A DNA stretch of 64,000 nt from Comamonas testosteroni (GTDB lineage: Bacteria; Pseudomonadota; Gammaproteobacteria; Burkholderiales; Burkholderiaceae_C): contig NZ_CP129673.1 in NCBI RefSeq assembly GCF_030505195.1, forward strand, positions 111,836 through 175,835, written 5' to 3'. The position numbers and the translations under genes are program-made. The notes under the pieces are model-generated. The model was given only the letters and a program-made list of their open reading frames with translations. It was not told the origin of the DNA and searched no databases. The stretch's first letter is position 1; every line of letters begins with the position of its first letter. Below, one piece after another: positions 47,675 to 61,894 of the stretch.

Positions 47675-47700
47675 ACTTCCTCTTTTTCTATCTCTTAGGT

Positions 47701-47714
47701 TTTCGCATGCGAAA
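47701..47714. promoter_or_regulatory. Plasmid palindrome site 1 (TTTCGCATGCGAAA)
   Basis: A perfect 14-bp dyad, 27 bp before the leftward gene starting at 47674. One of five copies in the backbone. Confidence 0.7.
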
Positions 47715-47807
47715 CAGTTAGCGCGTCAGATGCATTTTGTAACAAGTTGGCATCGTGACATAACTCACCTGTCCTAACCTGACAACTTGACTCCCGCGCC
47801 TCAGTTG

Positions 47808-48269
47808 CTAACGGTGTGCTTTGCTCCGGCGATATCCGTTCGCTTGAACATCAGGCGGACACCGCAGGAATTGCTGGCGCAGCACGCCTATGCCAAGGAC
47901 TTTCAAGACCATCAGCCGCGCACCCGGATTCAGGCCGGAGATAGCGCCCGAGGCGTAAAGACCTATCATCAGGACATCAACGGCGGCGCTAAAGCCCAGG
48001 GCCGCGCAAACCAAGCTGGAGCTGCGAGTCCGTCGCTCAAGACAGATCACAATGCACAGGTAGAACAGCACCAGATTGATGAGCATGTGTGGCCAGTCCG
48101 CGCCACCGGACAAGTACAGCCTGCTCCAGCCAGCAACAAAGAACACCAGACTGAAGGAACTCACAGTCGCTATCGAGTCGGCCAAAAGCGCGAACATTGG
48201 CCGCAAGGTGATGAGCCTGCACAGATGCCACGCCATAGCGCAGACCCACAATCCCAGTAGTCGAACCAT
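47808..48269 (-). CDS. Polytopic membrane protein, 153 aa
   Basis: About four hydrophobic segments: LLGLWVCAMAWHLCRLITL, IATVSSFSLVFFVAGWSRLY, MLINLVLFYLCIVICLE and VCAALGFSAAVDVLMIGLYA, with a basic tail. The ATG follows the stop codon of the preceding gene directly (TAGATG), so the two are co-translated. The layout resembles small phage or plasmid holin-like membrane proteins, but no family is recognised. Confidence 0.6.
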   Translation of the reverse strand: MVRLLGLWVCAMAWHLCRLITLRPMFALLADSIATVSSFSLVFFVAGWSRLYLSGGADWPHMLINLVLFYLCIVICLERRTRSSSLVCAALGFSAAVDVLMIGLYASGAISGLNPGARLMVLKVLGIGVLRQQFLRCPPDVQANGYRRSKAHR

Positions 48270-48524
48270 CTACTTTGTTGCTCCGTTGCAATCTACGCAT
48301 GCTATGCCGCGCTTCACGTCCGTCACGCTGTCGAAGCTCAGCCAGCCTGTAGAGATGCCGCAGCGCCGACATGACATGACTGCGATGTACTGACCAGACT
48401 CGCTGGTTCCAGCGTCCGACACATGCATCAGCACGCGGCGAGACGCGCGCTTGGCCTTGGCTTTTTCCACTGGCAAGGGGACGCTCTCTGGGAACAGATC
48501 TCCGGTCATTTCATCCTTTGTCAT
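48270..48524 (-). CDS. Small Cys-rich protein, possible zinc ribbon, 84 aa
   Basis: MTKDEMTGDLFPESVPLPVE from the ATG at 48524, with GGAAGGGCAGGGG upstream; a longer frame from 48566 would start inside a terminator. The C-terminal part contains MSCRRCGISTGWLSF and GIACVDCNGATK, a CxxC-CxxC arrangement suited to one zinc. Similar small proteins occur in phage and plasmid genomes. It is followed without a gap by the membrane-protein gene at 47808. Confidence 0.6.
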   Translation of the reverse strand: MTKDEMTGDLFPESVPLPVEKAKAKRASRRVLMHVSDAGTSESGQYIAVMSCRRCGISTGWLSFDSVTDVKRGIACVDCNGATK

Positions 48525-48538
48525 CCCCTGCCCTTCCC

Positions 48539-48564
48539 AAAAAAAAGGCCCATGAAACTGGGCC
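48539..48564 (-). terminator. Terminator of the kla-like operon
   Basis: Read leftwards, GGCCCA (48564-48559), a 6-nt loop, TGGGCC (48552-48547) and eight T. It lies 17 bp after the stop at 48581. Confidence 0.8.
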
Positions 48565-48580
48565 AAGCCTCAAAGTGATT

Positions 48581-49609
48581 TCAGGTATTGGCTGACACGC
48601 CAGACAGCCTGTAAATCGTCTTTAGGTTCTTGCGCATGTATTGCTCAAGAGCAAACACAAAACCGGACAGCAGTGCCATCAGCCCACATACAGCCAGAAC
48701 CAAATTCGCCCATAGGTTGAGTCTGCTCTTGGCCTCAGCTTCCTGCTGCTCATGATTGAAGGAGCGAAGACTTCGGCTCATACCCCATGCCTTGTTCTCC
48801 ATCATGGCTAGCACGTCTGCGGAGTACTGCAGTTCGGGCGTTGCATTCGATGCCCTTTCCAGTGCCAAATCCAGGTTGGCACGGTAGGCATCCCAGTTGA
48901 TCTCAGAATCCTTCTGTTTCAGCTGTGCCTGCGCAACAAGATATGGCCCGAACTCTTGGGCATCAGCAGATGCATTGCCTATCAACTCGGTGACGCGTGC
49001 AGGCAGGCCGAAGCTGATGGCCTCCTCGATCTGCTTTTGTCTTGCATCGCTCTTGGACTGGCGGTGCTCTGCTCGCTCGGAGCTTGATGAAAACAAGCTG
49101 CTTTCGAGTCCATCGTGTTGAGGAGCAATCCCTTCGATGACATTCTGGAAAACAAAGGATGCGGGGATCAGCATCAACCCCATGAACACACGAGCGAATT
49201 GACCAAATATCAATCCGCTAATGGCCAGAGCTGTCGCGGACAATACTCCAACGACTTTGACTAGGTTGCTCAGGGTGACAAAGGTGGAAAAAGAGTTCAT
49301 TCCGGTTCGAATCCCATCCACCGCCCCGCTAGTCTCTGCGGGTCCGCTCGCCTCCAAGGCTTTGGCCAGTGCCTTCGGAATATCGGGACTGCCGATGCTC
49401 CGCAGTGGCTCATGCCCCATTCCCAACCAAGCCAGGACAGCTGCAACTGCTGCCGCTACGAAGACAACAATGGCCGCCATTTGCCAAACGCGCTTGAGGC
49501 GATTCGCACGTTGGAACAATGTGCCCGATACCTCTTCAATCCAGCTCGTTTCAAGCACGGTCTTCTCAACCCCTTTAGCGCCCCAATTTTTGGTACGTGT
49601 CTCGCTCAT
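48581..49609 (-). CDS. KlaC/TelB-like membrane protein, 342 aa
   Basis: Four hydrophobic segments: WQMAAIVVFVAAAVAAVLAW (about 43-62), VVGVLSATALAISGLIFG and FMGLMLIPASFVFQNVI (about 117-158), and LVLAVCGLMALLSGFVFALE near the C-terminus. Between them is a charged helical region. It is third in a leftward operon whose second gene is telA-like, the order klaA-klaB-klaC of IncP plasmids. Homology to KlaC is inferred from order, size and topology only. Confidence 0.5.
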   Translation of the reverse strand: MSETRTKNWGAKGVEKTVLETSWIEEVSGTLFQRANRLKRVWQMAAIVVFVAAAVAAVLAWLGMGHEPLRSIGSPDIPKALAKALEASGPAETSGAVDGIRTGMNSFSTFVTLSNLVKVVGVLSATALAISGLIFGQFARVFMGLMLIPASFVFQNVIEGIAPQHDGLESSLFSSSSERAEHRQSKSDARQKQIEEAISFGLPARVTELIGNASADAQEFGPYLVAQAQLKQKDSEINWDAYRANLDLALERASNATPELQYSADVLAMMENKAWGMSRSLRSFNHEQQEAEAKSRLNLWANLVLAVCGLMALLSGFVFALEQYMRKNLKTIYRLSGVSANT

Positions 49610-49612
49610 GAT

Positions 49613-50761
49613 TTAGGCTCCTGTGGCTGCGCTTGCGCGAGAGATGCCCAGATTCTGGCTATTGGTCGAAATTTGCTTTTTCATCTGCGCACACATGTGC
49701 TCAATCTGCATACTCGACTGCTCGCGTTCCCTCTTGCCTTCCAGCTGGATCTGGCTCACATCGTTTGCGGTCTTCACCAACATGTCCTGCACGTACTGCA
49801 GAGTCTTGACATCGATAGGCAAGCGCTGATTTGACTTAGCCGTGGCCACCGCGTTCTTGTGCAGCAAATCAGCACCGCGTGTGAGCATGCTGTTCGTGAA
49901 ATCATCGATGGCCACAGTCAGCTCTGCGGCATTTTTCGATTCATTCAGGCCCATGGCCAGCACAAACTGCCGCTTCCAGATTGGGATCGTCAGCGTAGTG
50001 ATGGTGTTGAACTTGTCCACCAGGACGAAGTTCGTGGACTGGATCACACGGATCTGGGGGAGCATCTGCAGGGACGATTGCTGAAGCGCTTCGAGGTTGC
50101 CGATACGCAGCCCCAGGTTGCTCGCAAAAGCCTGCATATCGGACAACTCCTGCAGCTCCGCAGGATTGCTCGCAATTTGCTGGCGCTGCTCGATCAGCTG
50201 ATGCACGCGCGCCAATGCAACGCGGCCAGCTACGATGTGCACGCTCAGCTCGTAATACTCTTTGCGAACGTTGTCGAACATCACTTCCAGCGTTTCATTG
50301 CGTTTGCTCAGCCCCGCCACGGTCGTTTGAACTTCGGTGATCACCTTGTCGATCTGCTCCTTGGATGTTTCGAACTGGTTCTGCAGGCGCATTCCGCGCA
50401 TCTTCAGCTTGTCGATCCATGGCCCAATCACCGGGAGGTTAGAGCGCCGTCCTGTCAGTACGTTCATGTTGGTTTTCTGGGCAATGCCGACGACTTCAAC
50501 CAGCTGGTCGCCCATTTGCCCCACTTCACCGTTCCGAACCTGGCTCAACAGTTCGTCGGCATATGCCGTAGTCTGTTCACCCGCTCGCTTTCCGAAGGTG
50601 TTGACCGTTCCCGGATTCATCGGATCGATGTCTTGCACCAGCTGCGCGATGTGCTCCAGATCGCCATTACCCAGACCCATGACCTTCAGTTGCTTGTCGC
50701 TCAGCTGATGGACTTCAACGGGATATGTAGATGTCGGTGTCTTTGTCGCAATCGTGTTCAT
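49613..50761 (-). CDS. klaB: TelA/KlaB-family protein
   Basis: 382 aa, close to RK2 KlaB (about 378). Soluble and largely helical. The core NMNVLTGRRSNLPVIGPWID and IVAGRVALARVHQLIEQRQQ, then TTLTIPIWKRQFVLAMGL and SKNAAELTVAIDDFTNSMLT, match the TelA toxic-anion-resistance family. In IncP plasmids the kla operon confers cryptic tellurite resistance and is lethal when derepressed. It lies 14 bp from the gene before and 3 bp from the gene after. Confidence 0.82.
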   Translation of the reverse strand: MNTIATKTPTSTYPVEVHQLSDKQLKVMGLGNGDLEHIAQLVQDIDPMNPGTVNTFGKRAGEQTTAYADELLSQVRNGEVGQMGDQLVEVVGIAQKTNMNVLTGRRSNLPVIGPWIDKLKMRGMRLQNQFETSKEQIDKVITEVQTTVAGLSKRNETLEVMFDNVRKEYYELSVHIVAGRVALARVHQLIEQRQQIASNPAELQELSDMQAFASNLGLRIGNLEALQQSSLQMLPQIRVIQSTNFVLVDKFNTITTLTIPIWKRQFVLAMGLNESKNAAELTVAIDDFTNSMLTRGADLLHKNAVATAKSNQRLPIDVKTLQYVQDMLVKTANDVSQIQLEGKREREQSSMQIEHMCAQMKKQISTNSQNLGISRASAATGA

Positions 50762-50775
50762 GATTCTTTTCCCTG

Positions 50776-51543
50776 TTACTGAGTGACCGAAATGGACTTG
50801 AGGTTGTCTGCGAAGCTCTTGCGCAGGTTTTCATGGGCTTGGATAGCCATGGCCAGCTGCTCGCCCGTAACGTGGTTTTGCACGCCCAGGCCCAGCATGT
50901 TCTGACGCCACAGCGGCACCAGCACCTGAGCGGTTTCGTCAAACCGATCCAGCACATCGATCAACTGGTACTTGAGCAGTTGGAGCTGCTGGCCTGTTTG
51001 TGCGTGGGAAACCTGCATGGCTTGAAGGTTGATCAACCGGCGAGAAAAGCGCTCTCGGCTCGTTTCCAGGTCAAATGCCAATGCACCACCCTGGCTATCT
51101 GGCGTTTGAGCCAGATATTTCTGACCCGCTTCAATGTGGTTGCTGATGATTTGGGCCTCGGCTCCATAGGTAGAGCACAGAGACTCAATCACATCGATGA
51201 CATCGCGCACCAGCGCGGCTTCCTTGGTCGCTGCATTGAGCAGTTGATCCATGTTGATCTTGGCCACCTCAAAGCGCACACGCTTTGTCTGGGCCAGCCC
51301 AGTGAATCTCGACCACTTAGACGGCTTCTCCGAGATGGCTTTCGGGTCTGCATCTTCTAAACACATCACCACTCCGCGAATGCTTCGTGCAAGTCCAGCA
51401 GAGGGATTGCTCCCCAGTAGCTTGTCCAGCTTGACATCGATCTCAGGATCTCGGACGAGCTTGCCAAAGTCACCGATACCCAGTGGGTTACGGAACAACT
51501 CTGGTATTTGCTCTGAAGTGATGACCTCGATGGAATCCATCAT
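50776..51543 (-). CDS. KlaA/KilA-like protein, 255 aa
   Basis: First gene of the kla-like operon, close in size to RK2 KlaA (about 257). Helical and soluble. The C-terminal half is a distant relative of the TelA-like gene next to it (ALAFDLETSRERFSRRLINL, then QVLVPLWRQNMLGLGVQ against LTIPIWKRQFVLAMGL), so the two may be old paralogues. The operon promoter is probably the TTGCAT motif at 51610-51636. Confidence 0.55.
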   Translation of the reverse strand: MMDSIEVITSEQIPELFRNPLGIGDFGKLVRDPEIDVKLDKLLGSNPSAGLARSIRGVVMCLEDADPKAISEKPSKWSRFTGLAQTKRVRFEVAKINMDQLLNAATKEAALVRDVIDVIESLCSTYGAEAQIISNHIEAGQKYLAQTPDSQGGALAFDLETSRERFSRRLINLQAMQVSHAQTGQQLQLLKYQLIDVLDRFDETAQVLVPLWRQNMLGLGVQNHVTGEQLAMAIQAHENLRKSFADNLKSISVTQ

Positions 51544-51609
51544 TAATCGGCCCTCTCAATTTGTATTGTTCAAACAGAATGAAGGGCAACTTCAAATGTT
51601 GCCCGACTA

Positions 51610-51636
51610 AAACTACCAGCACTTCAAAAAATGCAA
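51610..51636 (-). promoter_or_regulatory. Promoter-like TTGCAT-15-TAGTTT (kla operon)
   Basis: Reading leftwards, TTGCAT at 51636-51631, 15 bp, TAGTTT at 51615-51610, 67 bp before the klaA-like start. It is the only minus-strand member of the set. Confidence 0.5.
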
Positions 51637-51807
51637 GCTGCTGCGCAAAGCATATTTGGAAGCACTCATAGCCTCGAACGGGCAATTGCCCAGGAAGGGC
51701 CAAATCAGCGACGGAGCACCTGTAACTTTTGGTATCATCGTCAATCGATTTTGAACACCATTAGTAATTCTTAATCGATATTCAACTGATACCAAACTAA
51801 GGCATCC

Positions 51808-52359
51808 ATGAAATTCAAAAATAAACTTGTCACTCTTGCAGTGATTGCTTTCCTGCAAGGATGTGGAGGGGGAGATTCATCTGCTTCATCTGGGAAACCG
51901 GAAGAACCTGAAAAGCCTTTGACCGTTGCCCAAAAGATTGCTGCATTGGAAGAATCAGGCCAACTGCCAAAATTGAATCGAGACGATACATTGACGGGTA
52001 TTGATTCTGACAGCAATGGTGTCCGCGACGATATCGACGCCTATATTTCTCAAGTATTCCCTGCAGAAATACGTCAAGCGGCCACCAAAGCCGCTCAAGT
52101 TGAGCAGTCTATGCTCACTGTGGATGTGAACGATAAAGATGCTGTGCGCGACATCAACAACGCATACACCCGTGCCAATGGATGCATTTTCGAAACAGCA
52201 AGAAATAAGGACCTTGAAATAAAGCCTTACTTCGTCAGCAAGCAGATATCGGCCATTACTGCTAATACCAAAAAACGACTCCTAGCGATGGTGGATTTCA
52301 GCCATGCTTCAAACGGGATGGTGTTTACAGGCCAACTTAACGGTAACTGCGATGAATAA
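51808..52359 (+). CDS. Lipoprotein, 183 aa
   Basis: Signal peptide MKFKNKLVTLAVIAFLQGCG with the lipobox Cys at about residue 19, followed by GGGDSSASSGKPEEPEKP, a typical flexible tether. The mature domain has NRDDTLTGIDSDSNGVRDDI, a calcium-loop-like D-x-D-x-D-G pattern, and one free Cys pair (C131 region and C180). It overlaps the next gene by 8 bp. Upstream at 51744 and 51774 two ATCGAT sites 30 bp apart may be an operator. Confidence 0.7.
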   Translation: MKFKNKLVTLAVIAFLQGCGGGDSSASSGKPEEPEKPLTVAQKIAALEESGQLPKLNRDDTLTGIDSDSNGVRDDIDAYISQVFPAEIRQAATKAAQVEQSMLTVDVNDKDAVRDINNAYTRANGCIFETARNKDLEIKPYFVSKQISAITANTKKRLLAMVDFSHASNGMVFTGQLNGNCDE

Positions 52360-53737
52360 GAATATTTTCCAAAAAGCAATTTCGGTTGTCCTGGCAAGCG
52401 CTATCGCGCTCTCTTCCACAGCAGGCCTAGCCGCAACTGGCCTTCCAGCGCCCGCCCAGTGCCAGACGCTTGATGGCTACACCATTGGCTATTTCAACGG
52501 TGTTCTCAACACCCGCCAAGATGCTGAGCGCTCTGCGGCTTTGCTACGCGCGCAACAGTATGAGAAGCGTTTTGCGGTCCCTACGGGCGAAACCTTGATC
52601 GTGCAAAACTACTTCAACGACTCCAAGGGCTGGCGAGACTTCATCGAAGTCTTTGAACAGCGCGTTCTGCAGCAGGACGAAAACCTGTCTGGTCGTTGGG
52701 AGTTGTTTCAGCAAGCCATTAGTGGCGATCTTAATAAGCCTGGTGATAGCTGGTTCGATAAGCTTGGTACAGTCTTCAACGGCTTCACCGACTGGATTAA
52801 TTCCTATCAGGATTACTTAATTACTCAAGTCCCTTCAGCTATTGCTGCACGGTTTGGCATCGCAAACCTTGCTTCATTGATTATTGGTGATGAAACCGAA
52901 GCAATCTGGCAAACCGAGGTCGAACACCGCCAACGACTCGAAACCACGATCAATGAGGGTCGAAAACTGGTAATGGTCGCCCATTCCCAGGGAAATTTAT
53001 TCGTTCACGAGGCATATAAAAATGCCCTCAAACTGACCACTTCTAACTTTGTCAAAGTGGTTCATATTGCCTCTGCGTCACCCTTCACGCATGGCCCACA
53101 TGTTGTGGCTGACAAAGATCTGGTGATTAAGGGCCTGAACCTATTTTTTACCAATCCACCAGTTTATACGGTCATCCCAGGGTTGCTTGAGCGTCTAAAT
53201 CCTGGCCCAACTGACTGGAAAGGCCATTCACTTGAAATGATATATTTGAATGAGTTGATTCCCACAAAGCCGCTGATTGACGGACATATCATTAACGCAC
53301 TCAGCTCTATCCAAGCTCCTCCTAAAGTTGCGCAACCAGGTCTGTTTACTGTGACTCTGGACTGGGATGGTCCTGGTGATGTCGATCTGCACACCTACGA
53401 GCCGAACGGCAACAAGGTGTACTTCAGCAACAAAATCGGCTCCAGTGGTCGCCTTGATGTGGACAACATCTCTGGCTATGGCCCTGAGCACTTCTATGCC
53501 TCCTGCGACACCAACAGAATCATGGATGGAGACTACAACATCGGTGTGGCCAACTACAGCAGAGCCGATGGGCGTCGAGCCAACATTCAAGTAGCTACTC
53601 CCGATGGAGGCGTTATCGCCACCGAGTCTGTGACGCTGGGAACTGCCACTGGCACACAGACCTACCTCATGCCCATACGTATCAATGTCAAACGTGACCA
53701 GACCACTGGTGCGGTAAAGGTAAAGAAGGTCGGTTGA
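52352..53737 (+). CDS. Secreted alpha/beta-hydrolase-like protein with C-terminal beta-domain
   Basis: 461 aa from the ATG at 52352 inside the end of the lipoprotein gene. Signal peptide ISVVLASAIALSSTAGLAA (residues 10-28). GRKLVMVAHSQGNLFVHEAY holds a nucleophile-elbow-like A-H-S-Q-G (Ser about 212). From about 355 a beta-sandwich domain starts, GLFTVTLDWDGPGDVDLHTY, a pattern seen in YfaP/DUF2135-type domains. A secreted lipase or esterase working with the preceding lipoprotein is likely. A terminator follows. Confidence 0.7.
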   Translation: MNKNIFQKAISVVLASAIALSSTAGLAATGLPAPAQCQTLDGYTIGYFNGVLNTRQDAERSAALLRAQQYEKRFAVPTGETLIVQNYFNDSKGWRDFIEVFEQRVLQQDENLSGRWELFQQAISGDLNKPGDSWFDKLGTVFNGFTDWINSYQDYLITQVPSAIAARFGIANLASLIIGDETEAIWQTEVEHRQRLETTINEGRKLVMVAHSQGNLFVHEAYKNALKLTTSNFVKVVHIASASPFTHGPHVVADKDLVIKGLNLFFTNPPVYTVIPGLLERLNPGPTDWKGHSLEMIYLNELIPTKPLIDGHIINALSSIQAPPKVAQPGLFTVTLDWDGPGDVDLHTYEPNGNKVYFSNKIGSSGRLDVDNISGYGPEHFYASCDTNRIMDGDYNIGVANYSRADGRRANIQVATPDGGVIATESVTLGTATGTQTYLMPIRINVKRDQTTGAVKVKKVG

Positions 53738-53770
53738 GAATCGCTTAGATCCTGAGCGTATCCATAACCC

Positions 53771-53800
53771 AAGGGCACTATTTATTAGTGCCCTTTTCTT
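53771..53800 (+). terminator. Rho-independent terminator
   Basis: AAGGGCACTA (53771-53780), loop TTTAT, TAGTGCCCTT (53786-53795), then TTCTTT. Confidence 0.8.
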
Positions 53801-53805
53801 TGGGC

Positions 53806-53832
53806 TTGCATTTTTCTCCATTCAAGTATTCT
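53806..53832 (+). promoter_or_regulatory. Promoter-like TTGCAT-15-TATTCT
   Basis: TTGCAT at 53806-53811, 15 bp, TATTCT at 53827-53832, right after a terminator. The next gene starts only at 54068; the 235 bp between hold no evident gene. Confidence 0.45.
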
Positions 53833-54067
53833 TTTCTGAGGAAACACGACTTGTAGGTTCCTCTGTTCCATGTTGATCACCGTTGGTAGGCGGCTCAGGG
53901 AGTCGAAGTTACTTGAAAGCGATCTAGAAGTAGATTCAGCAATGAAAGACAACAGAATCGCATGATTTCTTATTTAGAAGTCGCCTGTAAGTCGCTATCT
54001 GGCCGCGCCACAAGAGTGTCTTGCAACCTAGACACCACTTGTAAGTTACATCAAAACAATCTGAAAA

Positions 54068-54556
54068 ATGACAAATCATCTGGAAGCGACTTTGAAAGAG
54101 GCTTCTATAGCCTGCCCAACCTTGCCGATCATGCCCTCGCCCTATCAAGAATGGCTTGAAGAGGCGGAACTTGGCCTTCTGGCCTTAGATGATTGCCGAA
54201 TTGAGTGCGACAACATGACATGGGTTATTTCGTACTTATTCAACAGAATAAAGCTGCCTCATAAATGCATGTCCGGGCACTTGATGCTGAGCAATCGGAA
54301 GAAGTACGTCACACCGCACTACTGGATTCAACTGCCTGCTGGATATGTTGTCGATCTCCGACTTCGCATGTGGTTCGGGGATGACGAAGCAATCCCACAT
54401 GGCATCTTCCAACCAGGCATGCACCCCAGGTTCATCTACTCCGGCAAGGAAGTTGAGCCATACAAGCTCACAGCTTCACTTGCCTCCATCCTCACAGACG
54501 GATTGATCTCTAACGTCAAACTGCCCAGCAAACAAAACCGTCCCCTGTGTAAATAG
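54068..54556 (+). CDS. Hypothetical protein, 162 aa
   Basis: A soluble protein with CRIECDNMTWVISYLFNRI, then HYWIQLPAGYVVDLRLRMWF (about 91-110). The spaced H-x-W...V-D-L pattern recalls the His-Asp part of transglutaminase or NAT-like folds, and CMSGH (about 67-71) could supply a Cys, but the order Cys-His-Asp is only suggestive. It lies 29 bp before the nuclease-like gene, in the same direction. Confidence 0.55.
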   Translation: MTNHLEATLKEASIACPTLPIMPSPYQEWLEEAELGLLALDDCRIECDNMTWVISYLFNRIKLPHKCMSGHLMLSNRKKYVTPHYWIQLPAGYVVDLRLRMWFGDDEAIPHGIFQPGMHPRFIYSGKEVEPYKLTASLASILTDGLISNVKLPSKQNRPLCK

Positions 54557-54585
54557 GGACAGGTCAACAGCACCAAGAGGGATAC

Positions 54586-55047
54586 ATGGACACCTCAACT
54601 AAATTCCTGATCGTCGTCTTCGGCGTTCCTCTCGCGCTCTCCGCATTCGAGCAACTGATGCACAGGATTGCAGGTGGCGCGCATTTCTGGCAGCAAGGCG
54701 AGAACATGCCGCGAGAACTCCGCAGGTCATCTGTGCTGATGAATGAGGAAGCAATCTCATGCACTCACCCCATCCCTATCCAAGGGCGTGTCGATCAAGT
54801 ATTCCTCGCCCCAGGTGGAGAAGTCATTCCTCTTGATACCAAGACACGTTCGGCCCACCGGGTCATGGAATCAGACGTTGTTCAGTTGTCTGTCTACGCT
54901 GTAGCTCTACGTCAGAAGTACCCTACCGCGAACGTTAGCCACGGCTATATCAGAACAGTTGTTGGCTCCGTCAATGACAAAACTGTGGTCTATCACCGGG
55001 TTCGGTTGCTCAGCGACCGGGCTGTCGTTCGGATCGCTACAGGCTGA
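54586..55047 (+). CDS. Membrane-anchored PD-(D/E)xK (RecB/Cas4-like) nuclease, 153 aa
   Basis: One N-terminal TM segment (FLIVVFGVPLALSAFEQL, about 7-24), then a small domain with IQGRVDQVFL (Asp about 70), VIPLDTKTR (Asp 84, Lys 86) and VQLSVYAVAL (Gln 100, Tyr 104). This D...DxK...QxxxY series is the signature of RecB/Cas4-type nucleases of the PD-(D/E)xK superfamily. No iron-sulfur Cys set is present. No CRISPR genes are nearby. A membrane-tethered DNA-processing role on this plasmid is inferred. Confidence 0.6.
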   Translation: MDTSTKFLIVVFGVPLALSAFEQLMHRIAGGAHFWQQGENMPRELRRSSVLMNEEAISCTHPIPIQGRVDQVFLAPGGEVIPLDTKTRSAHRVMESDVVQLSVYAVALRQKYPTANVSHGYIRTVVGSVNDKTVVYHRVRLLSDRAVVRIATG

Positions 55048-55060
55048 GCTGTGGCCTGTT

Positions 55061-55084
55061 CGCTTTTTCGCATGCGAAAAAGCG
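55061..55084. promoter_or_regulatory. Plasmid palindrome site 2 (24-bp perfect dyad)
   Basis: CGC and GCG flank a central TTTTTCGCATGCGAAAAA. It is the longest of the five copies, 15 bp before the next one. Confidence 0.75.
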
Positions 55085-55098
55085 GCATGTTGTGGCTA

Positions 55099-55118
55099 CT
55101 TTTTCGCATGCGAAAAAG
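55099..55118. promoter_or_regulatory. Plasmid palindrome site 3 (20-bp perfect dyad)
   Basis: C-TTTTTCGCATGCGAAAAA-G. Centre-to-centre distance from site 2 is 36 bp. Confidence 0.75.
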
Positions 55119-55154
55119 GTGTCCCTGCGGTCCTACTCTGTCCTCTCAGAACAA

Positions 55155-55168
55155 TTTAAGCGCTTAAA
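55155..55168. promoter_or_regulatory. Palindrome TTTAAGCGCTTAAA
   Basis: A perfect 14-bp dyad with a different sequence, 37 bp after site 3 and 47 bp before the promoter-like motif at 55215. It recalls the TTTAGC-GCTAAA shape of the IncP KorB operator. Single copy. Confidence 0.45.
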
Positions 55169-55214
55169 CCGGCCTTCGTAGGTGCATCGGCCCTTTTGGG
55201 GCATTGCTGAAAAC

Positions 55215-55241
55215 TTGCATTTTTTTAAAGGCGCATAGGAT
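55215..55241 (+). promoter_or_regulatory. Promoter-like TTGCAT-15-TAGGAT
   Basis: TTGCAT at 55215-55220 and TAGGAT at 55236-55241, 37 bp before the ATG at 55279 and downstream of three palindromes. Confidence 0.5.
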
Positions 55242-55278
55242 TTAAACAAACCGAAACATTCACTCACAAGGGGGCTGT

Positions 55279-55596
55279 ATGCCTAACTCACCGTCATACC
55301 AAGAGCTGCAAACCGAGAGCTTCAAGCTGTCTACTCAGGAGGAAGCTACTCTGCGCCGATACAGCACCGTCACAGGTGTGCTGGTGTGTGCCCAAGCTGT
55401 ATTCATCCCTGAGCTGGGAATTGCAGGCTCGGCGCTTGCTGGGGTGATCGGCATCGCACCTCTCGCCTACAAATTCTTCTGTGCTGAAGAAAACGCCAAG
55501 GGATTCACCACCCTCGTTTCCACTTTGATTCTCAGCCCCTTGCTGGGCCTTGTGATCGATTTGCTCATGCGCCTGCTCAAGCTCAACCTGATCTGA
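55279..55596 (+). CDS. Small membrane protein, 105 aa
   Basis: AAGGGGG precedes the ATG. A charged N-terminal part (residues 1-28) is followed by two to three hydrophobic segments: VTGVLVCAQAVFIPELGIAG, LAGVIGIAPLAYKFF and TLVSTLILSPLLGLVIDLLM. It is the first gene of a rightward series including an S49 peptidase and a DsbA-like protein, all envelope-linked. No family is recognised. Confidence 0.6.
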   Translation: MPNSPSYQELQTESFKLSTQEEATLRRYSTVTGVLVCAQAVFIPELGIAGSALAGVIGIAPLAYKFFCAEENAKGFTTLVSTLILSPLLGLVIDLLMRLLKLNLI

Positions 55597-55670
55597 GCTA
55601 GCGGACCCCTGGCATGAAGACCCAAGACTGAAAGCAAGGTCTGCGTCGTCGCCAATATAGAAAGTAATCC

Positions 55671-56636
55671 ATGAAGTTCAAGCTGTTTTCAAGGTCAGCT
55701 CCTACCCCTCCTTTGTCCGTCGATCAAGCCATCTGGGAAATACACAGCCAGTATCGCCGCCACAATCGCTGGAACATTCTGGCCAACATGATGAGGGCCA
55801 TAGGTGTTCTTCTCTTTCCGTTGGCCTTCATCGTCCTCTCAATGAATGGCGGCAACTGGCCATGGTCTTCATCGGAAGAGTCAAAGGCGCACACCGCCTT
55901 CGTCAACGTGCGAGGGGAAATTGCTGCTGGCTCTTTGGCTGATTCTGACCGCCTGATCCCGGCCATTCAGAAAGCATTCAAGAATGAGCATTCCAAGGCC
56001 ATCATCATCAAAATCAACTCGCCAGGTGGTAGCCCGGTTCCCTCCGGGCGTATCCACGATGAAATCTTGGTCCAACGCGCCAAGTTCCCTGAGAAGAAGG
56101 TTTATGCGGTCATTGACGACATCGGTGCATCTGGCGGCTACTACATCGCTGTTTCGGCCAATGAAATTTATGCAGACCGGGCGAGCCTGGTAGGCTCCAT
56201 CGGAGTGATCAGCTCCACCTTCGGTTTCACCGGCCTCATGGACAAGCTAGGCATTGAACGTCGCGCGATAACCGCTGGCGAGCACAAGGCACTGCTTGAC
56301 CCCTTCTCTCCCCTCTCGCCCGAGATCAAGAAATTCTGGGAGGCATTGTTGGCCCAGACCAATGAGCAGTTTGTCTCACGCGTAAAAACTGGTCGTGGTG
56401 ATCGCCTTCAAGACGACCCCAAGATCTTCTCGGGCCTGATCTGGAACGGGGAGCAAGCCAAGAACCTGGGCCTTATCGATGGCCTGGGTAGCATGGAGCA
56501 GGTCGCCAGTGACGTTATTGGCGTCAGCAAGCTCGTTGACTACACCCCAAGCGAAGATTTCTTCAAGCGCATGTCTCAGCGCGCCAAGGTTGAAGCTCGC
56601 GCATTACTCAGCAACGCCCTCCCCTCCCTTCGCTAA
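55671..56636 (+). CDS. S49-family (SppA/SohB-like) membrane peptidase
   Basis: 321 aa with one TM segment (IGVLLFPLAFIVLSMNG, about 44-60). KINSPGGSPVPSGRIHDEI, then VIDDIGASGGYYIAVSANEI with the catalytic Ser at about 154, SLVGSIGVISSTFG, and TAGEHKALLDPFSPLSPEIK with the catalytic Lys at about 206. It cleaves signal peptides or small membrane proteins. It is shorter than SppA and similar in size to SohB. A plasmid copy may process plasmid-encoded membrane proteins or lipoproteins. Confidence 0.9.
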   Translation: MKFKLFSRSAPTPPLSVDQAIWEIHSQYRRHNRWNILANMMRAIGVLLFPLAFIVLSMNGGNWPWSSSEESKAHTAFVNVRGEIAAGSLADSDRLIPAIQKAFKNEHSKAIIIKINSPGGSPVPSGRIHDEILVQRAKFPEKKVYAVIDDIGASGGYYIAVSANEIYADRASLVGSIGVISSTFGFTGLMDKLGIERRAITAGEHKALLDPFSPLSPEIKKFWEALLAQTNEQFVSRVKTGRGDRLQDDPKIFSGLIWNGEQAKNLGLIDGLGSMEQVASDVIGVSKLVDYTPSEDFFKRMSQRAKVEARALLSNALPSLR

Positions 56637-56650
56637 CTCCGTCGCTGGCA

Positions 56651-56734
56651 ATGAAGCACCTGCCAAAAAATGTCATCGCAGCCCTGATCGTTGTCATTCT
56701 CTTCCTGTGCTTGCTCAGCTCCGCTCAGATCTAA
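56651..56734 (+). CDS. Possible 27-aa single-TM peptide
   Basis: MKHLPKNVIAALIVVILFLC followed by LLSSAQI and a stop: a basic start and one hydrophobic span, filling most of the 113-bp gap between the peptidase and DsbA-like genes. The ribosome binding site is weak. It could be a small membrane peptide; confidence is limited by its length. Confidence 0.35.
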   Translation: MKHLPKNVIAALIVVILFLCLLSSAQI

Positions 56735-56749
56735 ATCAGCCGCTTCCAA

Positions 56750-57652
56750 ATGAACATGAACGCCCCTACTTCCGCTCAAACTTCTGAACCTAAAGCGGTT
56801 CAGTTCCGAAATGCATTCATCAACATCTTTCTACCCATCTTCGGTTTAATCATCGCTGGCTTCCTGGGCTGGCAACTCTACAAGCTCAACGACATCACAA
56901 GCTCATTCGGCAAAGGCTCGTCCGTGAGCTTCAAGACAGAAGACGAATTCAACAATGCAGTGGCCAAAGCCTTCAACAAGATCGTTGAAGACAAACAGAA
57001 AGCCATGGCCCAGAGCAAGCTGCAGAAGTTCACTGCCGCTCCCGAATTTGTGCCTGATGGCAAGCACATCTACGGCTCCATGGATGCGCGCTACACACTG
57101 GTGGAGTTCTCCGACCTGGAGTGCCCATATTGCAAACGCTTCCACAACACGCCCAAGCAGCTCGTGGACGCCAGCAAAGGCAATGTGAACTGGCAATGGA
57201 TGCACTACCCCCTGGACTTTCACAATCCTGCAGCTGCAGATCAGGCCATCGCATCTGAGTGCATCTCTGAACAACTGGGCAACCGCGCCTTCTGGGCTTT
57301 CTTAAACGATGTGTTTGTGCAGTCGCGTGGCAACGGTCAAGGCGTGCCCAATCTGGCTGAGCTGGCCACGGAAATTGGCGCTGACAGCAACAAGTTCCTC
57401 GAATGCGTCGGCTCTGGCAAATACCAGCAAAAAATCCAAGAGCACATGCAAAAGGCCGCGGCGCAAGGTATCAAGGCAACACCGGCAACTTTCGTTGTCG
57501 ATAACCACACCGGCAAGATGCAGCTCGTGGCTGGTGCCCAGCCCGTGCAAGCGTTGATGGCTGCTGTCTCCAAGCTCAAGGCAGAAGCTGAAGAGGAAGC
57601 AGAAAGCCAGAACGGCCCTGGTGAACAAAGCGCTGTGCAAGACAAGAGTTAA
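56750..57652 (+). CDS. DsbA-like thiol-disulfide protein, membrane-anchored
   Basis: 300 aa. N-terminal TM anchor (INIFLPIFGLIIAGFLGWQL, about 24-43), a helical linker, then a thioredoxin fold: TLVEFSDLECPYCKRFHNTP with C125-P-Y-C128, and the cis-Pro loop KATPATFVVDNHTG near 245. It ends with an acidic tail (AEAEEEAESQNGPGEQ). It most likely forms or shuffles disulfides in the periplasm. The N-terminus MNMNAP is shared with the next gene, suggesting local duplication of the start region. Confidence 0.85.
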   Translation: MNMNAPTSAQTSEPKAVQFRNAFINIFLPIFGLIIAGFLGWQLYKLNDITSSFGKGSSVSFKTEDEFNNAVAKAFNKIVEDKQKAMAQSKLQKFTAAPEFVPDGKHIYGSMDARYTLVEFSDLECPYCKRFHNTPKQLVDASKGNVNWQWMHYPLDFHNPAAADQAIASECISEQLGNRAFWAFLNDVFVQSRGNGQGVPNLAELATEIGADSNKFLECVGSGKYQQKIQEHMQKAAAQGIKATPATFVVDNHTGKMQLVAGAQPVQALMAAVSKLKAEAEEEAESQNGPGEQSAVQDKS

Positions 57653-57664
57653 AAGTCAGGAGCC

Positions 57665-58105
57665 ATGAACATGAATGCCCCTGGCGTAATCGCCGTTGCG
57701 AACGGACCCAAGAAACCCAAGCTTCAGCTCAAGAGGGCAGTTTTGGAATACGTCGAAGGAATGGCCCTGGATCTTGGCGAAGTGCTAATGCTTGAGGTTC
57801 TGGAGCCAGCCGACCGTAAGGCTCTCCAAGACGCACAGCGCGTTTGTCTCAAACTGACATTGCAAAAGCGCCTGCACGGTGTTGACTCTTTCGTATGGGA
57901 GCAATTGCAGGCTGCGATGAAGGACGACTATAAAAAGGACGCCTGGGCATTCGAAGAAGAAGCACTTCTACTGACTGCGATGGGTTCCATCTGTGCACCT
58001 GAGATCGACATCGCCTTGCTTTCAAAGCGCATGAATAGATCCCCTTACTCTGTCGCGCTCAAAGCCTTGGAATTGGGCTATCTGCGCGCTCCTTCTTCCG
58101 ACTGA
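57665..58105 (+). CDS. Hypothetical protein with C-terminal HTH-like motif, paralogue A
   Basis: 146 aa; GGAG precedes the ATG 12 bp after the DsbA-like gene. The C-terminus EIDIALLSKRMNRSPYSVAL, then KALELGYL, is closely similar to that of the next gene (EIDVHHLSTQLGRSPYSVAS, KLVQHGFL). This looks like a helix-turn-helix or SANT-like unit. The N-terminal halves also align loosely (VEGMALDLGEVLMLEVLE against TAGDLDEIVKIDGLT). Function unknown; DNA binding is possible. Confidence 0.6.
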   Translation: MNMNAPGVIAVANGPKKPKLQLKRAVLEYVEGMALDLGEVLMLEVLEPADRKALQDAQRVCLKLTLQKRLHGVDSFVWEQLQAAMKDDYKKDAWAFEEEALLLTAMGSICAPEIDIALLSKRMNRSPYSVALKALELGYLRAPSSD

Positions 58106-58155
58106 AGACCTCGGCCACTATCGCAGTGGCTTAGCCTCCCACTCAAGGAGTCACC

Positions 58156-58638
58156 ATGTCACGTATTAAAAATGCTCTGGTCCGCGCCCTGAAGGCTACG
58201 GCGGGTGATCTGGATGAAATCGTCAAAATAGACGGCCTAACCAAGCAGGAGCGTTTCGTCTTGCATTCGGCTCGGGAGATTTGTGAGCGCCTGATGACGG
58301 AACAGATACGAAGCCGCGTATCCAGCCCCCCTACCCCGTCCCAGGCCGAACGACATCACTCTGACAAGCCAAAGCCACCCCAGCAGTTGCCACGGAGTCA
58401 GAAAGGAAAGCCAGCTGAGCACAATCACCAGAAGCAATTCGCCAACCACGGCAAGCCCTGGTTGCCCAATGAGGTGGGCATCATCCAAAATGCTATCACC
58501 CTGGCCAGGGCTAAGGCGGTGGAGATCGATGTGCATCACCTCTCTACTCAACTAGGACGTTCGCCCTACTCTGTCGCGTCGAAGTTGGTACAGCACGGGT
58601 TCCTCAATGAAGATTGGGCGCAACAATTTCGCAAATAG
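58156..58638 (+). CDS. Hypothetical protein with C-terminal HTH-like motif, paralogue B
   Basis: 160 aa; AAGGAG precedes the ATG. An N-terminal helical part (ALVRALKATAGDLDEIVKID), a central basic Pro/Gln/His-rich linker (about 55-98), and a C-terminal WLPNEVGIIQNAITLARAKA plus EIDVHHLSTQLGRSPYSVAS unit shared with paralogue A. The linker is the main difference between the two. It is the last gene before the ParB-like gene and its control region. Confidence 0.6.
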   Translation: MSRIKNALVRALKATAGDLDEIVKIDGLTKQERFVLHSAREICERLMTEQIRSRVSSPPTPSQAERHHSDKPKPPQQLPRSQKGKPAEHNHQKQFANHGKPWLPNEVGIIQNAITLARAKAVEIDVHHLSTQLGRSPYSVASKLVQHGFLNEDWAQQFRK

Positions 58639-58689
58639 CGCAAAGATCACAACACAGACTCAATGACTAGATAGACTGCATAGCAAGGC

Positions 58690-58705
58690 TTTTCGCATGC
58701 GAAAA
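58690..58705. promoter_or_regulatory. Plasmid palindrome site 4 (TTTTCGCATGCGAAAA)
   Basis: A perfect 16-bp dyad, 18 bp upstream of the TTGCAT motif that serves the ParB-like gene. Confidence 0.75.
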
Positions 58706-58723
58706 AATCGGTAGCTGAAGTCC

Positions 58724-58750
58724 TTGCATTTTTCTTGATCGCAGTACCAT
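58724..58750 (+). promoter_or_regulatory. Promoter-like TTGCAT-15-TACCAT
   Basis: TTGCAT at 58724-58729 and TACCAT at 58745-58750, 32 bp before the ATG at 58783. Confidence 0.5.
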
Positions 58751-58782
58751 AAATTAAGTCTGTCAATTGGAGGGATACAACC

Positions 58783-59808
58783 ATGTCTACTGCAGCACCC
58801 AAGAAACAACCTCACCCCGACACCATCAATTCGCTCAAGGCACTGGAAAAGAGCCTCCCTCTTGAAGAGATGTCGCGCACCGATGGCTTCCTGCTTCATC
58901 ACTCTTTGGTGGTCCCTCAACCAGGGTTCAATGCTCGCACCGCCTTCATGGACGAGGATGAGTACTTTGCAATGCCCGAGAACGCTGCCCGCGTTCGGAT
59001 GTTTGCGGATGCCTATAAGGAAGGCAAGTACGTCCCGAACATCCTGGTGAAGGTCATTGGCGGCGTTGCCTATATCCGTGATGGCTACACACGCAAGCGC
59101 GGCTTGAATTTGGCCATTGCCGAAGGGGCGCTGATCCAGAAGATTTTCGTCACTGAGATGAAGGGTGACGACGCTGAACAGGCTTTGGTTGTCATCAACG
59201 GCAACAACGGCGCTCCTGTATCTGTTTTGTCCTGTGCGGTGCAATATCAGCTTCTTGAAAGCTGGGGCTGGAGCATTGCAGAGATGGCCAGACGCTCCAA
59301 CGTGACTCCAGAAGCTGTTCGTTTCGCACTCTCGCTGTTGGATCTGCCTTTGCCTGTCAAAGTGATGATCCAGAAAAATGAAGTCTCTGCGACAACGGCT
59401 TTGGAGCAGTTCAACGAACATGGAAATGACGTTGTAGAGATCCTGGCCGAAGCAGTCAAAACGGCTAAGGCTGCGCTGCCTGTGAAAGCTGCAGACGATT
59501 CCAAAAGTGGCGAGGGGGAGGGTGCCAACCCAGCGAAGAAAAAGCGCGCGCTTGTGACGAAGAAGCACCTGAAAGCGACTGCCGCCCCCAAGATGAACAA
59601 AAAGATGGTGACGGCCATGCACACCAGCCTCTCAGGCCTCACCAGCCGCCTGGATAGCATCACACCATCGGATGATGGACAGGCGTTCCTCATGAAGCTG
59701 ACCAGCGAAGATGTTGCTTTGCTGCGCGAACTGGCAGGAAAGCTGCCGCAGCTCACGCCCAAAGGCGAAGAAAAGAATGAAAATCAGGAAGAACTCAGTC
59801 TGGAATGA
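58783..59808 (+). CDS. ParB-like (ParB/Spo0J superfamily) protein, 341 aa
   Basis: GGAGG lies before the ATG. The N-terminal half (FMDEDEYFAMPENAARVRMF, then IRDGYTRKRGLNLAIAEG) resembles a degenerate ParB nuclease-like domain. The middle has a clear HTH, WSIAEMARRSNVTPEAVRFA, followed by LSLLDLPLPVKVMIQKNEVS, as in ParB/KorB. A basic linker (GANPAKKKRALVTKKHLKAT) and an acidic tail follow. It differs from the ParB at 60716. One of the two is the likely reader of the TTTTTCGCATGCGAAAAA sites, which flank this gene at 58690 and 59836. Confidence 0.7.
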   Translation: MSTAAPKKQPHPDTINSLKALEKSLPLEEMSRTDGFLLHHSLVVPQPGFNARTAFMDEDEYFAMPENAARVRMFADAYKEGKYVPNILVKVIGGVAYIRDGYTRKRGLNLAIAEGALIQKIFVTEMKGDDAEQALVVINGNNGAPVSVLSCAVQYQLLESWGWSIAEMARRSNVTPEAVRFALSLLDLPLPVKVMIQKNEVSATTALEQFNEHGNDVVEILAEAVKTAKAALPVKAADDSKSGEGEGANPAKKKRALVTKKHLKATAAPKMNKKMVTAMHTSLSGLTSRLDSITPSDDGQAFLMKLTSEDVALLRELAGKLPQLTPKGEEKNENQEELSLE

Positions 59809-59835
59809 GCCAGTAGGCCCAGACTTCCCCCAGCT

Positions 59836-59853
59836 TTTTTCGCATGCGAAAAA
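59836..59853. promoter_or_regulatory. Plasmid palindrome site 5 (TTTTTCGCATGCGAAAAA)
   Basis: A perfect 18-bp dyad, 38 bp before the parA start. Confidence 0.75.
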
Positions 59854-59891: not shown

Positions 59892-60719
59892 ATGAACAAA
59901 GTCATCAAGCGCAAACACAAGGGTAAAGCCAAGGTCGTCAGCTTCTCCAACCAGAAGGGTGGGGTGGGGAAGTCAACGGTGTGCATCCAGACTGCCTTCT
60001 ATCTCGCTATCAAAGAACAAGCAAAGACTCTTGTGCTGGACTTCGATGCCCAGGGCAACACATCCTCCCGACTTGTTCCACATGAAACAAATTCTGAGGG
60101 TGAGCTGGTCCCCGTTTACAGCGGTACTCGTGTGGTGGATTTGTTTAAAAAGGACATCGGCCCCATCGAAGTCATTCACTGCCCATGCGGTGTTGACCTC
60201 ATTCACACACTAAAGAACGACCACGATCTCAGTGAGATCGAAACCGGCCTCACGCTTGTAGACGCATTGAATCCGCGTGAGAATTTGCGTGAACTCTTAC
60301 AGCAGTACGACTATGTTTTGATCGACTGCCCGCCTAGCCTCGGCCGCAAGCTTTATGCTGCCCTCGCCATGAGCACCCATGTCGTAGCACCCGTCAAGCT
60401 GTCTGGTTTTGCTTACGATGGTCTAGAGGGCCTGCTGAGAACGTTGATCGGTGTTCAGCACTCTACGAATCCCGATCTTGAGATCTTGGGCGTCTTCATC
60501 AACGACCGCACGTCTTCGCTCAGCCATGAGCGTGCTGAAGAGAAGATACGCGCGGCTATCCCGGATCTCGTGTTCAAAAATACCATCAGAAACCGTCCCC
60601 CCCTGGATACAGCAACATCTGATGGGGTCCCGATCTGGACGCTCCCTTACGCTCACGTTGCCGCCAAAGAAGTGCTGGCCGTGATTAAAGAGCTGCTGTC
60701 GAAAGTGAACAAGAAATGA
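59892..60719 (+). CDS. parA: ParA partition ATPase
   Basis: 275 aa from MNKVIKRKHKGKAKVVSFSN. An in-frame ATG at 59844 lies inside the palindrome and gives a less typical N-terminus. Deviant Walker A NQKGGVGKSTVCIQTAF near residue 20, LVLDFDAQGNTSSRL, Walker B YDYVLIDCPPSLGRKLYAAL, and VAPVKLSGFAYDGLEGLLRT. It has no long N-terminal HTH, so it is closer to type Ib/IncC2-like ParA. It drives plasmid segregation with ParB, which it overlaps by 4 bp. Confidence 0.93.
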   Translation: MNKVIKRKHKGKAKVVSFSNQKGGVGKSTVCIQTAFYLAIKEQAKTLVLDFDAQGNTSSRLVPHETNSEGELVPVYSGTRVVDLFKKDIGPIEVIHCPCGVDLIHTLKNDHDLSEIETGLTLVDALNPRENLRELLQQYDYVLIDCPPSLGRKLYAALAMSTHVVAPVKLSGFAYDGLEGLLRTLIGVQHSTNPDLEILGVFINDRTSSLSHERAEEKIRAAIPDLVFKNTIRNRPPLDTATSDGVPIWTLPYAHVAAKEVLAVIKELLSKVNKK

Positions 60720-61894
60720 AGAACATCACCTCATTAACCGAACTGGCCGCTGTTGCTACGCGCGGCATTCAACAAGAGGACGGCAAACCTCTGTCCGTGG
60801 ACATTGACGATATCGTCTCCAAGGCCCAGGTGCGCAAGCGCTTCAAGAACCTGGAAGAGCTTGCTGAAAGTCTCAAACTTGATGGCCAGATCAATGCCAT
60901 CAACGTTGCTCCCAAGAACAAGGATGGCAAGTATGTGATCCTCAAAGGAGAGCGTCGCTGGCGAGCAGGCAAAATTGCCAAGCTCAAACAGATGAAGATC
61001 GTCATCGATACGCGGATGCAGGATGATCTGGACCGCACTGCGGAAGAGCTGGCAGAGAACATCCAACGTGAAAACCTCACGCCTTTTGAAATCGCTGATG
61101 GACTGAGCCAGTTCAAGGAAGCAGGGTGGACCAATGGCCAGATCTCCAAACGTGTGTCTAAAACTCCAGCGTTTGTATCTTTGTACCTGTCTCTGCTGAG
61201 CATACCCAGCTTCATTCGCGCGCTGAACGATGAGGACGTCACGAACGATGCCGAGACGCTGTACAACCTGAGTCGCATTCATGATCTGGCTCCGCAAAGA
61301 GCCATCGAGATTGTTGCCCTGGCCAAGGAAGAAAAGAGCCTATCTCGCACTGCCACCCGCGCCATCTTGAAAGAGCTGACCGCTGATGATGGGAAGGAAC
61401 GTGGCAAGCGTGGACCTCAAGCCAAGGAGAGCAAGATAAAGCCCAACAGCAGCGACGACAGCAAGTCCGCAGCGGATAAGGCTCTCAATGCCAGCCAGGG
61501 CAAGCCTGATGCATCAAGTGCTGCCAGCGAGTCAGGCTCAACGGCCAGCTCTCAAGAGAGCACTGCCAAAGAGCTGGACAAGTCTGCAAAGATGAACAGT
61601 CCAGCAGCGCAAGATGCTGAGACGCAAACTACCGTGGCCAGCAAGCCCAACGATGCTCACAAGAAGCCAAGTCAACCAAGTGTTCAGAAGAATGTGAGCT
61701 TCAAAGCTGTCACACCAGGACAGATCATCCTGGCAGTTTCAGTCTCCATTGACGGCGTTGTTACAAATGCCGTGGTCATGAATGACCGGATTTCTCTTAA
61801 AGATGGCAGCGTTTGGGTGAAAACAGATGCTGGAAATGTAACTGAGGTGCTGGCCGAACAGATTACACTCCGGGGGGTTCAAGCAACCGACTAA
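60716..61894 (+). CDS. parB: ParB/KorB-like partition protein, 392 aa
   Basis: ParB N-terminal domain with VRKRFKNLEELAESLKLDGQ, then VILKGERRWRAGKIAKLKQM and ENIQRENLTPFEIADGLSQF. Central HTH WTNGQISKRVSKTPAFVSLY. A low-complexity Ser/Ala/Lys linker (about 225-315). A C-terminal beta-domain (PGQIILAVSVSIDGVVTNAV) sits where KorB has its SH3-like dimer domain. It binds parS; candidate sites are the TTTTTCGCATGCGAAAAA palindromes. Coupled to parA (ATGA overlap). Confidence 0.92.
   Translation: MKNITSLTELAAVATRGIQQEDGKPLSVDIDDIVSKAQVRKRFKNLEELAESLKLDGQINAINVAPKNKDGKYVILKGERRWRAGKIAKLKQMKIVIDTRMQDDLDRTAEELAENIQRENLTPFEIADGLSQFKEAGWTNGQISKRVSKTPAFVSLYLSLLSIPSFIRALNDEDVTNDAETLYNLSRIHDLAPQRAIEIVALAKEEKSLSRTATRAILKELTADDGKERGKRGPQAKESKIKPNSSDDSKSAADKALNASQGKPDASSAASESGSTASSQESTAKELDKSAKMNSPAAQDAETQTTVASKPNDAHKKPSQPSVQKNVSFKAVTPGQIILAVSVSIDGVVTNAVVMNDRISLKDGSVWVKTDAGNVTEVLAEQITLRGVQATD

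Follow-up and report, generated by a model that had tools for sequence, protein, structure and literature searches.

The Comamonas testosteroni plasmid analysed here carries short perfect palindromes that are very probably the parS sites of its own partition system, a ParABS system with a Walker-type ParA, related to the parAB-053 systems of IncA and IncC plasmids but diverged from them. The window, that is, the whole 64,000-nucleotide stretch under analysis, covers positions 111,836 to 175,835 of NZ_CP129673.1 and forms the end of this 175,835-bp contig, the plasmid of a two-contig genome. The 14-bp core TTTCGCATGCGAAA occurs in five exact copies in the window and in five more beyond it, giving 10 on the plasmid. 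An earlier note, made from the sequence alone, had described five palindromes with an identical 14-bp core and 14-24 bp of perfect symmetry as a candidate parS/operator system. All five proved to be exact, the starts given being those of the maximal palindromes, and read in context they span 14, 24, 20, 16 and 18 bp:

ParS-like site 1, 47701..47714: 14-bp palindrome (core 47701-47714), upstream of the minus-strand gene 47396-47674
ParS-like site 2, 55061..55084: 24-bp perfect palindrome, core 55066-55079
ParS-like site 3, 55099..55118: 20-bp perfect palindrome, core 55102-55115
ParS-like site 4, 58690..58705: 16-bp palindrome, core 58691-58704, upstream of the ParB-like gene at 58783
ParS-like site 5, 59836..59853: 18-bp palindrome, core 59838-59851, 40 bp upstream of the parA start

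The sites are intergenic, as had been claimed, provided that parA starts at 59892, the start annotated in a relative; a longer parA frame from an ATG at 59844 would begin within the palindrome of site 5, and this N-terminal extension is absent from the annotation of relatives. The centres of sites 2 and 3 were likewise found to be 36 bp apart, a spacing shared by all three relatives examined. A chance origin of the palindromes was rejected. No copies with one or two mismatches were present in the window, and 100 dinucleotide shuffles of it averaged 0.54 matches when up to two mismatches were allowed (maximum 4), so that none reached five. No 14-bp palindrome arose more than once when the window was simulated 200 times under a first-order Markov model, and about 0.0004 copies of TTTCGCATGCGAAA would be expected on the plasmid from the base composition of the window. 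The chromosome of the same genome contains no copy. Beyond approximately 3 bp from the core, the flanks of the sites are not alike.

Site 5 stands directly ahead of a three-gene par operon, and a second ParB-like gene (ParB1) precedes it:

58783..59808, plus strand: ParB1, a ParB-like protein with a weak HTH_ParB match, homologue of an IncC ParB-like gene
59892..60719, plus strand: parA, Walker-type partition ATPase, 61% identical to IncC ParA
60716..61894, plus strand: parB, KorB-domain ParB with ParB_N and KorB domains and the motifs GERRWRA and ENIQR, the proposed palindrome binder
61904..62176, plus strand: third operon gene, encoding a 90-aa HTH_43 protein ("053"), 54% identical to IncC 053

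In Pfam searches the ParB encoded at 60716 scored 60.4 bits for KorB (cut-off 22.3) and 48.4 bits for ParB_N (cut-off 26.3), and the KorB_C domain remained below its cut-off (17.7 vs 25). Its CTPase motifs are intact (GERRWRA for GERRxRA, ENIQR for ENxxR), by which it would fit the ParB CTPase family. After the Comamonas plasmids, the best 57 ParB rows listed were IncC plasmids and their kin. In addition to ParA and 053, identity to the proteins of an IncC plasmid was 62% for SppA, 54% for DsbA, 47% for ParB1 and 36% for ParB; for the latter it varied by region, from 57% in ParB_N and 40% in the helix-turn-helix (HTH)/KorB region to 12% in the linker and 38% at the C-terminus.

The best-characterized counterpart is the IncC plasmid R55, for which 14 palindromes with the fully conserved core TTTCACATGTGAAA have been described (Muranyi et al. 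2024, PMC10954446). In that report, IncC ParB bound three tested sites in electrophoretic mobility shift assays, not the bare 14-bp core, and binding required the flanks AAAC/GTTT; IncC plasmids lowered parA promoter activity ~8- to 11-fold; and ParA and ParB without 053 stabilised a parS-bearing replicon, one parS being enough when both proteins were supplied. The two systems share the operon order parA, KorB-domain parB and 053 HTH gene, as well as scattered 14-bp palindromes, one of them in the parA promoter region: here, 10 copies are distributed over the backbone and one ends 40 bp upstream of parA, and we counted eight exact copies of TTTCACATGTGAAA in 50 kb of one IncC plasmid, one of them 49 bp upstream of parA, and five in 29 kb of an Edwardsiella plasmid. 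On the other hand, TTTCGCATGCGAAA has G/C in place of A/T at core positions 5/10, its flanks read T-T-C vs C-A-A-A in IncC, and the replication protein of one Comamonas relative (L001) had no detectable similarity to that of IncC (best alignment E 0.35). The IncC core itself was found neither in the window (up to one mismatch) nor elsewhere in the genome; when the genome was scanned with the degenerate pattern TTTCNCATGNGAAA, there were 10 G-type sites (G at core position 5) on the plasmid and a single TTTCGCATGAGAAA on the chromosome. Thus, the kind of system is already known from IncC, and the core spelling would appear to be a variant of it.

The sequence, copy number, location and conservation of the palindromes and their co-occurrence with a KorB-like ParB were directly observed. 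Binding is known from IncC and NAH7, and parA promoter repression and stabilisation from IncC. By analogy, the KorB-domain ParB (60716) would bind the palindromes as a dimer and load at the ten sites, and ParA (59892) would move the ParB-loaded DNA and thereby segregate the plasmid. The site 40 bp upstream of parA would most likely also be an operator through which ParB represses its own operon, and the copies ahead of other backbone units and tra genes may load ParB that affects their promoters. TTTCGCATGCGAAA would then represent a form of TTTCACATGTGAAA with one symmetrical change in each arm, and the diverged ParB would match it. The connection with parA-parB proposed in the earlier note is therefore well supported by the binding of the homologous IncC ParB to flanked TTTCACATGTGAAA (PMC10954446) and by the position of site 5. 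The 36-bp pair (55066/55102), which the note offered as a possible centromere, can be regarded only as a candidate for the main one, because a single parS stabilised the IncC replicon when ParA and ParB were supplied (PMC10954446).

The palindromes are conserved in close relatives, and their absence there, which would have spoken against a functional system, was not observed. Three Comamonas plasmids in PLSDB, 96-98% identical to the window over 94-99% of positions 47000-64000, carry 8, 10 and 9 copies of TTTCGCATGCGAAA (whole-record search with the G core only). The cores of sites 2-5 are kept in place in all three and that of site 1 in two; in the third, the alignment to the window begins past site 1, beside an IS256 transposase gene. 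Strain R5-28 has further sites in front of traL, traF and an acetyltransferase gene, as well as one at the start of dsbC, which precedes traC. On NZ_CP043574.1, the annotated dsbC start codon sits within a palindrome (189136-189149); this record is classified by MOB-suite (via PLSDB) as non-mobilizable and without replicon, yet TraC, TraD, TraL, TraV, TraA, TraF, TraH and TraG are annotated on it. PLSDB gives no replicon type to this Comamonas plasmid group. C. testosteroni JL40, the only match in a genome-contig search with a single protein, has 10 copies of the core on one contig and a ParB 100% identical to that of the window; its plasmid may be nearly the same and was not counted as independent evidence. 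The core was detected in 10 of 399 genomes from the same family, a set that includes our own: 10 copies in our genome, one in each of eight others and five in G175. The five G-type cores of G175 are located on a chromosome-sized contig, with two pairs ~3.05 kb apart, apparently in duplicated stretches, and could belong to a mobile element or a parS mimic.

Several observations weigh against the parS interpretation. No sigma-70-like promoter was found upstream of parA in a scan of positions 54900-60000. Of 16 plasmids, 12 have a site at a distance of 20-101 bp in front of parA; the other four are three Pseudomonas plasmids and a Pseudoalteromonas plasmid whose site is 1,225 bp away. The Comamonas flanks differ from the AAAC/GTTT of IncC, half-sites on the plasmid having T at -1 in 18/20 cases and T at -2 in 16/20, and the core alone may not define the site; moreover, site 1 has T at -1 on a single side only, with G at -2 there. 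Finally, six of the replicon sets scanned below are free of the palindromes even though all six encode ParBs that match our search.

Three other explanations were considered. It is quite possible, although we hold it with less than even confidence, that the sites are mainly transcriptional operators with one or two used for partition, which is compatible with their being parS. Such a role would suit the way in which the ten copies are spread out in front of backbone and tra genes, and there are precedents in RK2 KorB, which represses at a distance (PMC11790492), and in the ParB of the IncP-9 plasmid NAH7, which turns on type IV secretion system (T4SS) genes from parS sites (PMC12421886); the ability of a single IncC parS to give partition when ParA and ParB are supplied (PMC10954446) argues against operator function as the main one. 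Structural or chance repeats, such as terminators, ends of mobile elements or low-complexity palindromes, are extremely improbable. A terminator-like stem (55039-55059) does lie beside site 2, seven such stems being found in the 5.1 kb scanned vs 6.0 expected, and the core is repeated on the G175 chromosome; such repeats are nevertheless difficult to reconcile with an invariant core without near-misses, its absence from our chromosome, its identical placement in relatives and flanks that are unshared beyond ~3 bp.

It is also highly unlikely that the sites serve ParB1 as operators, with ParB1 regulating genes plasmid-wide and parB relying on a different centromere. A core does end 78 bp in front of the ParB1 gene, three database relatives of ParB1 have an HTH_ParB domain, and ParB1 also occurs on the three related Comamonas plasmids and on the IncC and Edwardsiella plasmids. 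However, ParB1 reached no Pfam cut-off and no NCBIfam family, its best match among ParBs of solved structure had an E value of 0.39, and at E 0.001 it was matched in only 4 of 15 plasmids bearing A- or G-type palindromes, two of these matches being partial; remote ParB-like genes scoring below this threshold do exist on Pseudomonas plasmids, and those of P. putida and P. rhodesiae, each located ahead of parA, are 20% and 18% identical to ParB1. A recognisable ParB1 is thus not needed for the sites, and in IncC it is the KorB-domain ParB itself that binds (PMC10954446). ParB1 was rejected as the binder on the basis of the 11 plasmids without a match, and the protein at 58783, which the earlier note had also considered for this role, is probably not the one that recognises parS. 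For IncC, an additional regulator that acts on the parA promoter from outside the par operon has been inferred (PMC10954446); by analogy, we suggest ParB1 as a candidate. What the site-bearing plasmids were seen to share is parA and a KorB-like parB, since the records of P. rhodesiae, Alcaligenes and Serratia JSRIV001 show no 053-like gene annotated beside parB.

We then return to the parS reading and its place among known partition sites. By spelling, the closest bound site is parS of NAH7, TTTCTCGCATGCGAGAAA (PMC12421886), which is nearer than the IncC core. Six such sites are reported on that plasmid, some near T4SS genes (PMC12421886). Sites 2, 3 and 5 agree with it in 16 of 18 bases, including the G form at core position 5, and the mismatches are core position 2 and its mirror; TTTCTCGCATGCGAGAAA itself is absent from the window, where these three sites, at two mismatches, are the nearest. 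NAH7 differs in having C instead of T symmetrically at core position 2 and in carrying parR and parC instead of 053, and the likeness described here is one of the site. The NAH7 spelling was also found in three palindromes around parAB on Xanthomonas pXAC64. On a 104-kb contig of the genome G717, two perfect copies and one imperfect copy of GCTCGCATGCGAGC, ~100 bp apart (70409-70625), have the same inner core as the pXAC64 and NAH7 sites; a ParB matching our alignment at E 1.1e-58 is encoded ~66 kb away from them.

The earlier note had considered the site unrelated to the KorB operator and to chromosomal parS, which is too strong. IncP-1 plasmids (RK2/RP4) resemble the present system in a KorB-domain ParB and in several operators able to serve both partition and regulation, and the half-site TTTAGC of their operator OB, TTTAGCSGCTAAA, is one base from TTTCGC, with A at the fourth base and an odd 13-bp centre. 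Chromosomal parS, GTTTCACGTGAAAC, has the half-site TTTCAC, also one base away, with arms 2 bp closer than in the plasmid sites. The half-site TTTC-N-C is common to the plasmid sites, chromosomal parS and the Noc site NBS. Neither of the two known elements as such is present: TTTAGCSGCTAAA was not found in the window at up to one mismatch, which rejects the classical KorB operator, and the chromosomal-type parS pattern GTTNCACGTGNAAC had five matches (four perfect palindromes) together on the chromosome and none on the plasmid (one match for the reversed control pattern), which rejects identity with chromosomal parS. The literal string TTTCGCATGCGAAA was absent from the open-access paper texts searched (subscription papers, figures and supplements lie outside this coverage), and topic searches of the open literature yielded the papers on IncC, NAH7 and KorB, with none describing this core. 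PMC10954446, which was found via its own core and served as a positive control, was the sole partition-titled paper among the nine with related strings.

To describe the distribution of the core, plasmid records were used because a class-level genome search with a nine-row ParB alignment, which matched 341 of 369 genomes at E 1e-15, gave mostly other, much lower-scoring ParB homologues (own locus E 8.5e-168 vs 1.1e-58 for the second best). Whole records were scanned with TTTCNCATGNGAAA in 24 replicon sets (own genome, JL40 and 22 records); this pattern fixes the other core bases, so that variants there, such as the NAH7 form, escape it, and the comparison plasmids were hand-picked from match lists, so that the A/G split describes the rows examined. 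Eleven sets were G-only, six A-only, one had the C form and six had none; palindromes of both A and G type did not occur in any set. G-type copies numbered 10 in our genome, 10 in JL40, 8 in Alcaligenes pGZAF1_VIM, 6 and 8 in Halomonas, 9 in Serratia JSRIV001, 8 in S. marcescens, 7 in S. proteamaculans, 5 in P. putida, 5 in P. aeruginosa and 3 in P. rhodesiae, and A-type copies 11 in IncC, 10 in Edwardsiella, 12 in IncA, 13 in pAQU1, 14 in pAsa4 and 9 in Pseudoalteromonas. The asymmetric exceptions were one TTTCACATGCGAAA in IncC (51665), a hybrid with one A-type and one G-type arm, one TTTCTCATGCGAAA in Halomonas, and one half-matching site off the plasmid contig in our genome and likewise in JL40. 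Nine more distant plasmids comprised two of G type (S. marcescens and S. proteamaculans), one of C type (Paracidovorax) and the six without palindromes; among the latter, three IncP-1 or IncP-1-like plasmids show TTTAGCSGCTAAA, all without TTTCNCATGNGAAA, and Xanthomonas has the NAH7-type site, the remaining two being pAsa8 and Nitrosomonas p2. The Paracidovorax citrulli plasmid pACM6 carries, in 53 kb, TTTCCCATGGGAAA three times and the imperfect TTTCCCATGAGAAA, none near parAB, and the KorB domain of its ParB is below the Pfam cut-off; it possibly represents a C type of the same core. In the Serratia plasmids, the 7-9 G-type sites are grouped within ~4.5-11 kb around parAB instead of being scattered, and the ParB CTPase motifs are degenerate (GETRWRS for GERRWRA; ENIHQ/ENLHQ for ENIQR); their ParBs possibly load by another route that depends less on CTP.

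The base next to the core was plasmid-specific in a survey of 20 plasmids, whose site numbers equal the whole-record counts. It was C in IncC (20/24), IncA (21/24), Edwardsiella (15/20), pAQU1 (26/26) and Pseudoalteromonas (13/18), A in pAsa4 (23/28) and Alcaligenes (13/16), T in Comamonas (see above) and G in Halomonas PA16-9 (14/16), S. proteamaculans (14/14), S. marcescens (13/16) and Paracidovorax (6/8). Weaker preferences were observed for A in Serratia JSRIV001 (10/18), Halomonas THAF12 (9/14) and P. rhodesiae (3/6) and for G in P. putida and P. aeruginosa (6/10 each). The G-type plasmids were compared on the basis of eight out of 13, omitting P. rhodesiae, which has three sites, and, because they are near-duplicates, three Comamonas relatives and one Pseudomonas plasmid; the differences gave a chi-square of 141 on half-sites, or 70 with counts halved because two half-sites belong to one site.

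The core TTTC-N-CATG-N-GAAA recurs, almost unaltered, on large plasmids of Comamonas, Alcaligenes, Halomonas, Serratia, Pseudomonas, Pseudoalteromonas, Photobacterium, Aeromonas and Enterobacteria that differ in replicon type and whose ParBs go down to ~25-30% identity, and the IncP-9/Xanthomonas form departs from it at core position 2 only. We tentatively propose, with the balance tipped slightly against it, that plasmid centromere identity is mainly carried by this core together with a two-position code, namely base N (G ancestral, A in IncA/C and the marine clade, perhaps C in Paracidovorax) and a flank base that is T, C, A or G by plasmid. Chromosomal parS and the Noc site are separated at two bases, positions 1 and 6 (Jalal et al., PMC7383237); the core base corresponds to position 6 and the flank base to position 1, and these are thus the same two positions.

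In a tree of 21 ParB rows with KorB as outgroup, the six A-type ParBs form one clade (support 100/98), whose sister is the G-type Halomonas pair (83/92); the deeper order of G-type branches was poorly supported. Because the A-type clade is nested beside G-type Halomonas, a single A/G change with G ancestral is suggested for the sampled rows. The HTH residue after GK (T150 in Comamonas) is T, S or P in all 10 G-type rows, whereas all six A-type rows, and also the Paracidovorax row of C type, have Asn. This residue aligns with S172 of Caulobacter ParB, a parS contact (PMC7383237). Since the A-type rows are one clade, A and G are told apart equally well by 18 gap-free columns (counting those in which the A-type rows show no more than two kinds of residue), and with a single switch the pattern at T150 is a coincidence worth testing, not proof. 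Asn at this position as the whole explanation of the A/G code was rejected, because Ser172 of chromosomal ParB goes together with A at base 6 (PMC7383237).

These results give a predicted centromere for the Comamonas plasmid group and candidate centromeres for Alcaligenes, Halomonas, Serratia and large Pseudomonas plasmids. The partition-site specificity of KorB-like ParBs would be reduced to a small testable code of one core base, one flank base and a few HTH residues, which predicts which plasmids could interfere mutually through partition. If the two-position code holds, plasmids with the same code may load one another's ParB, prove incompatible with each other or be exposed to parS mimics of the SGI1 type.

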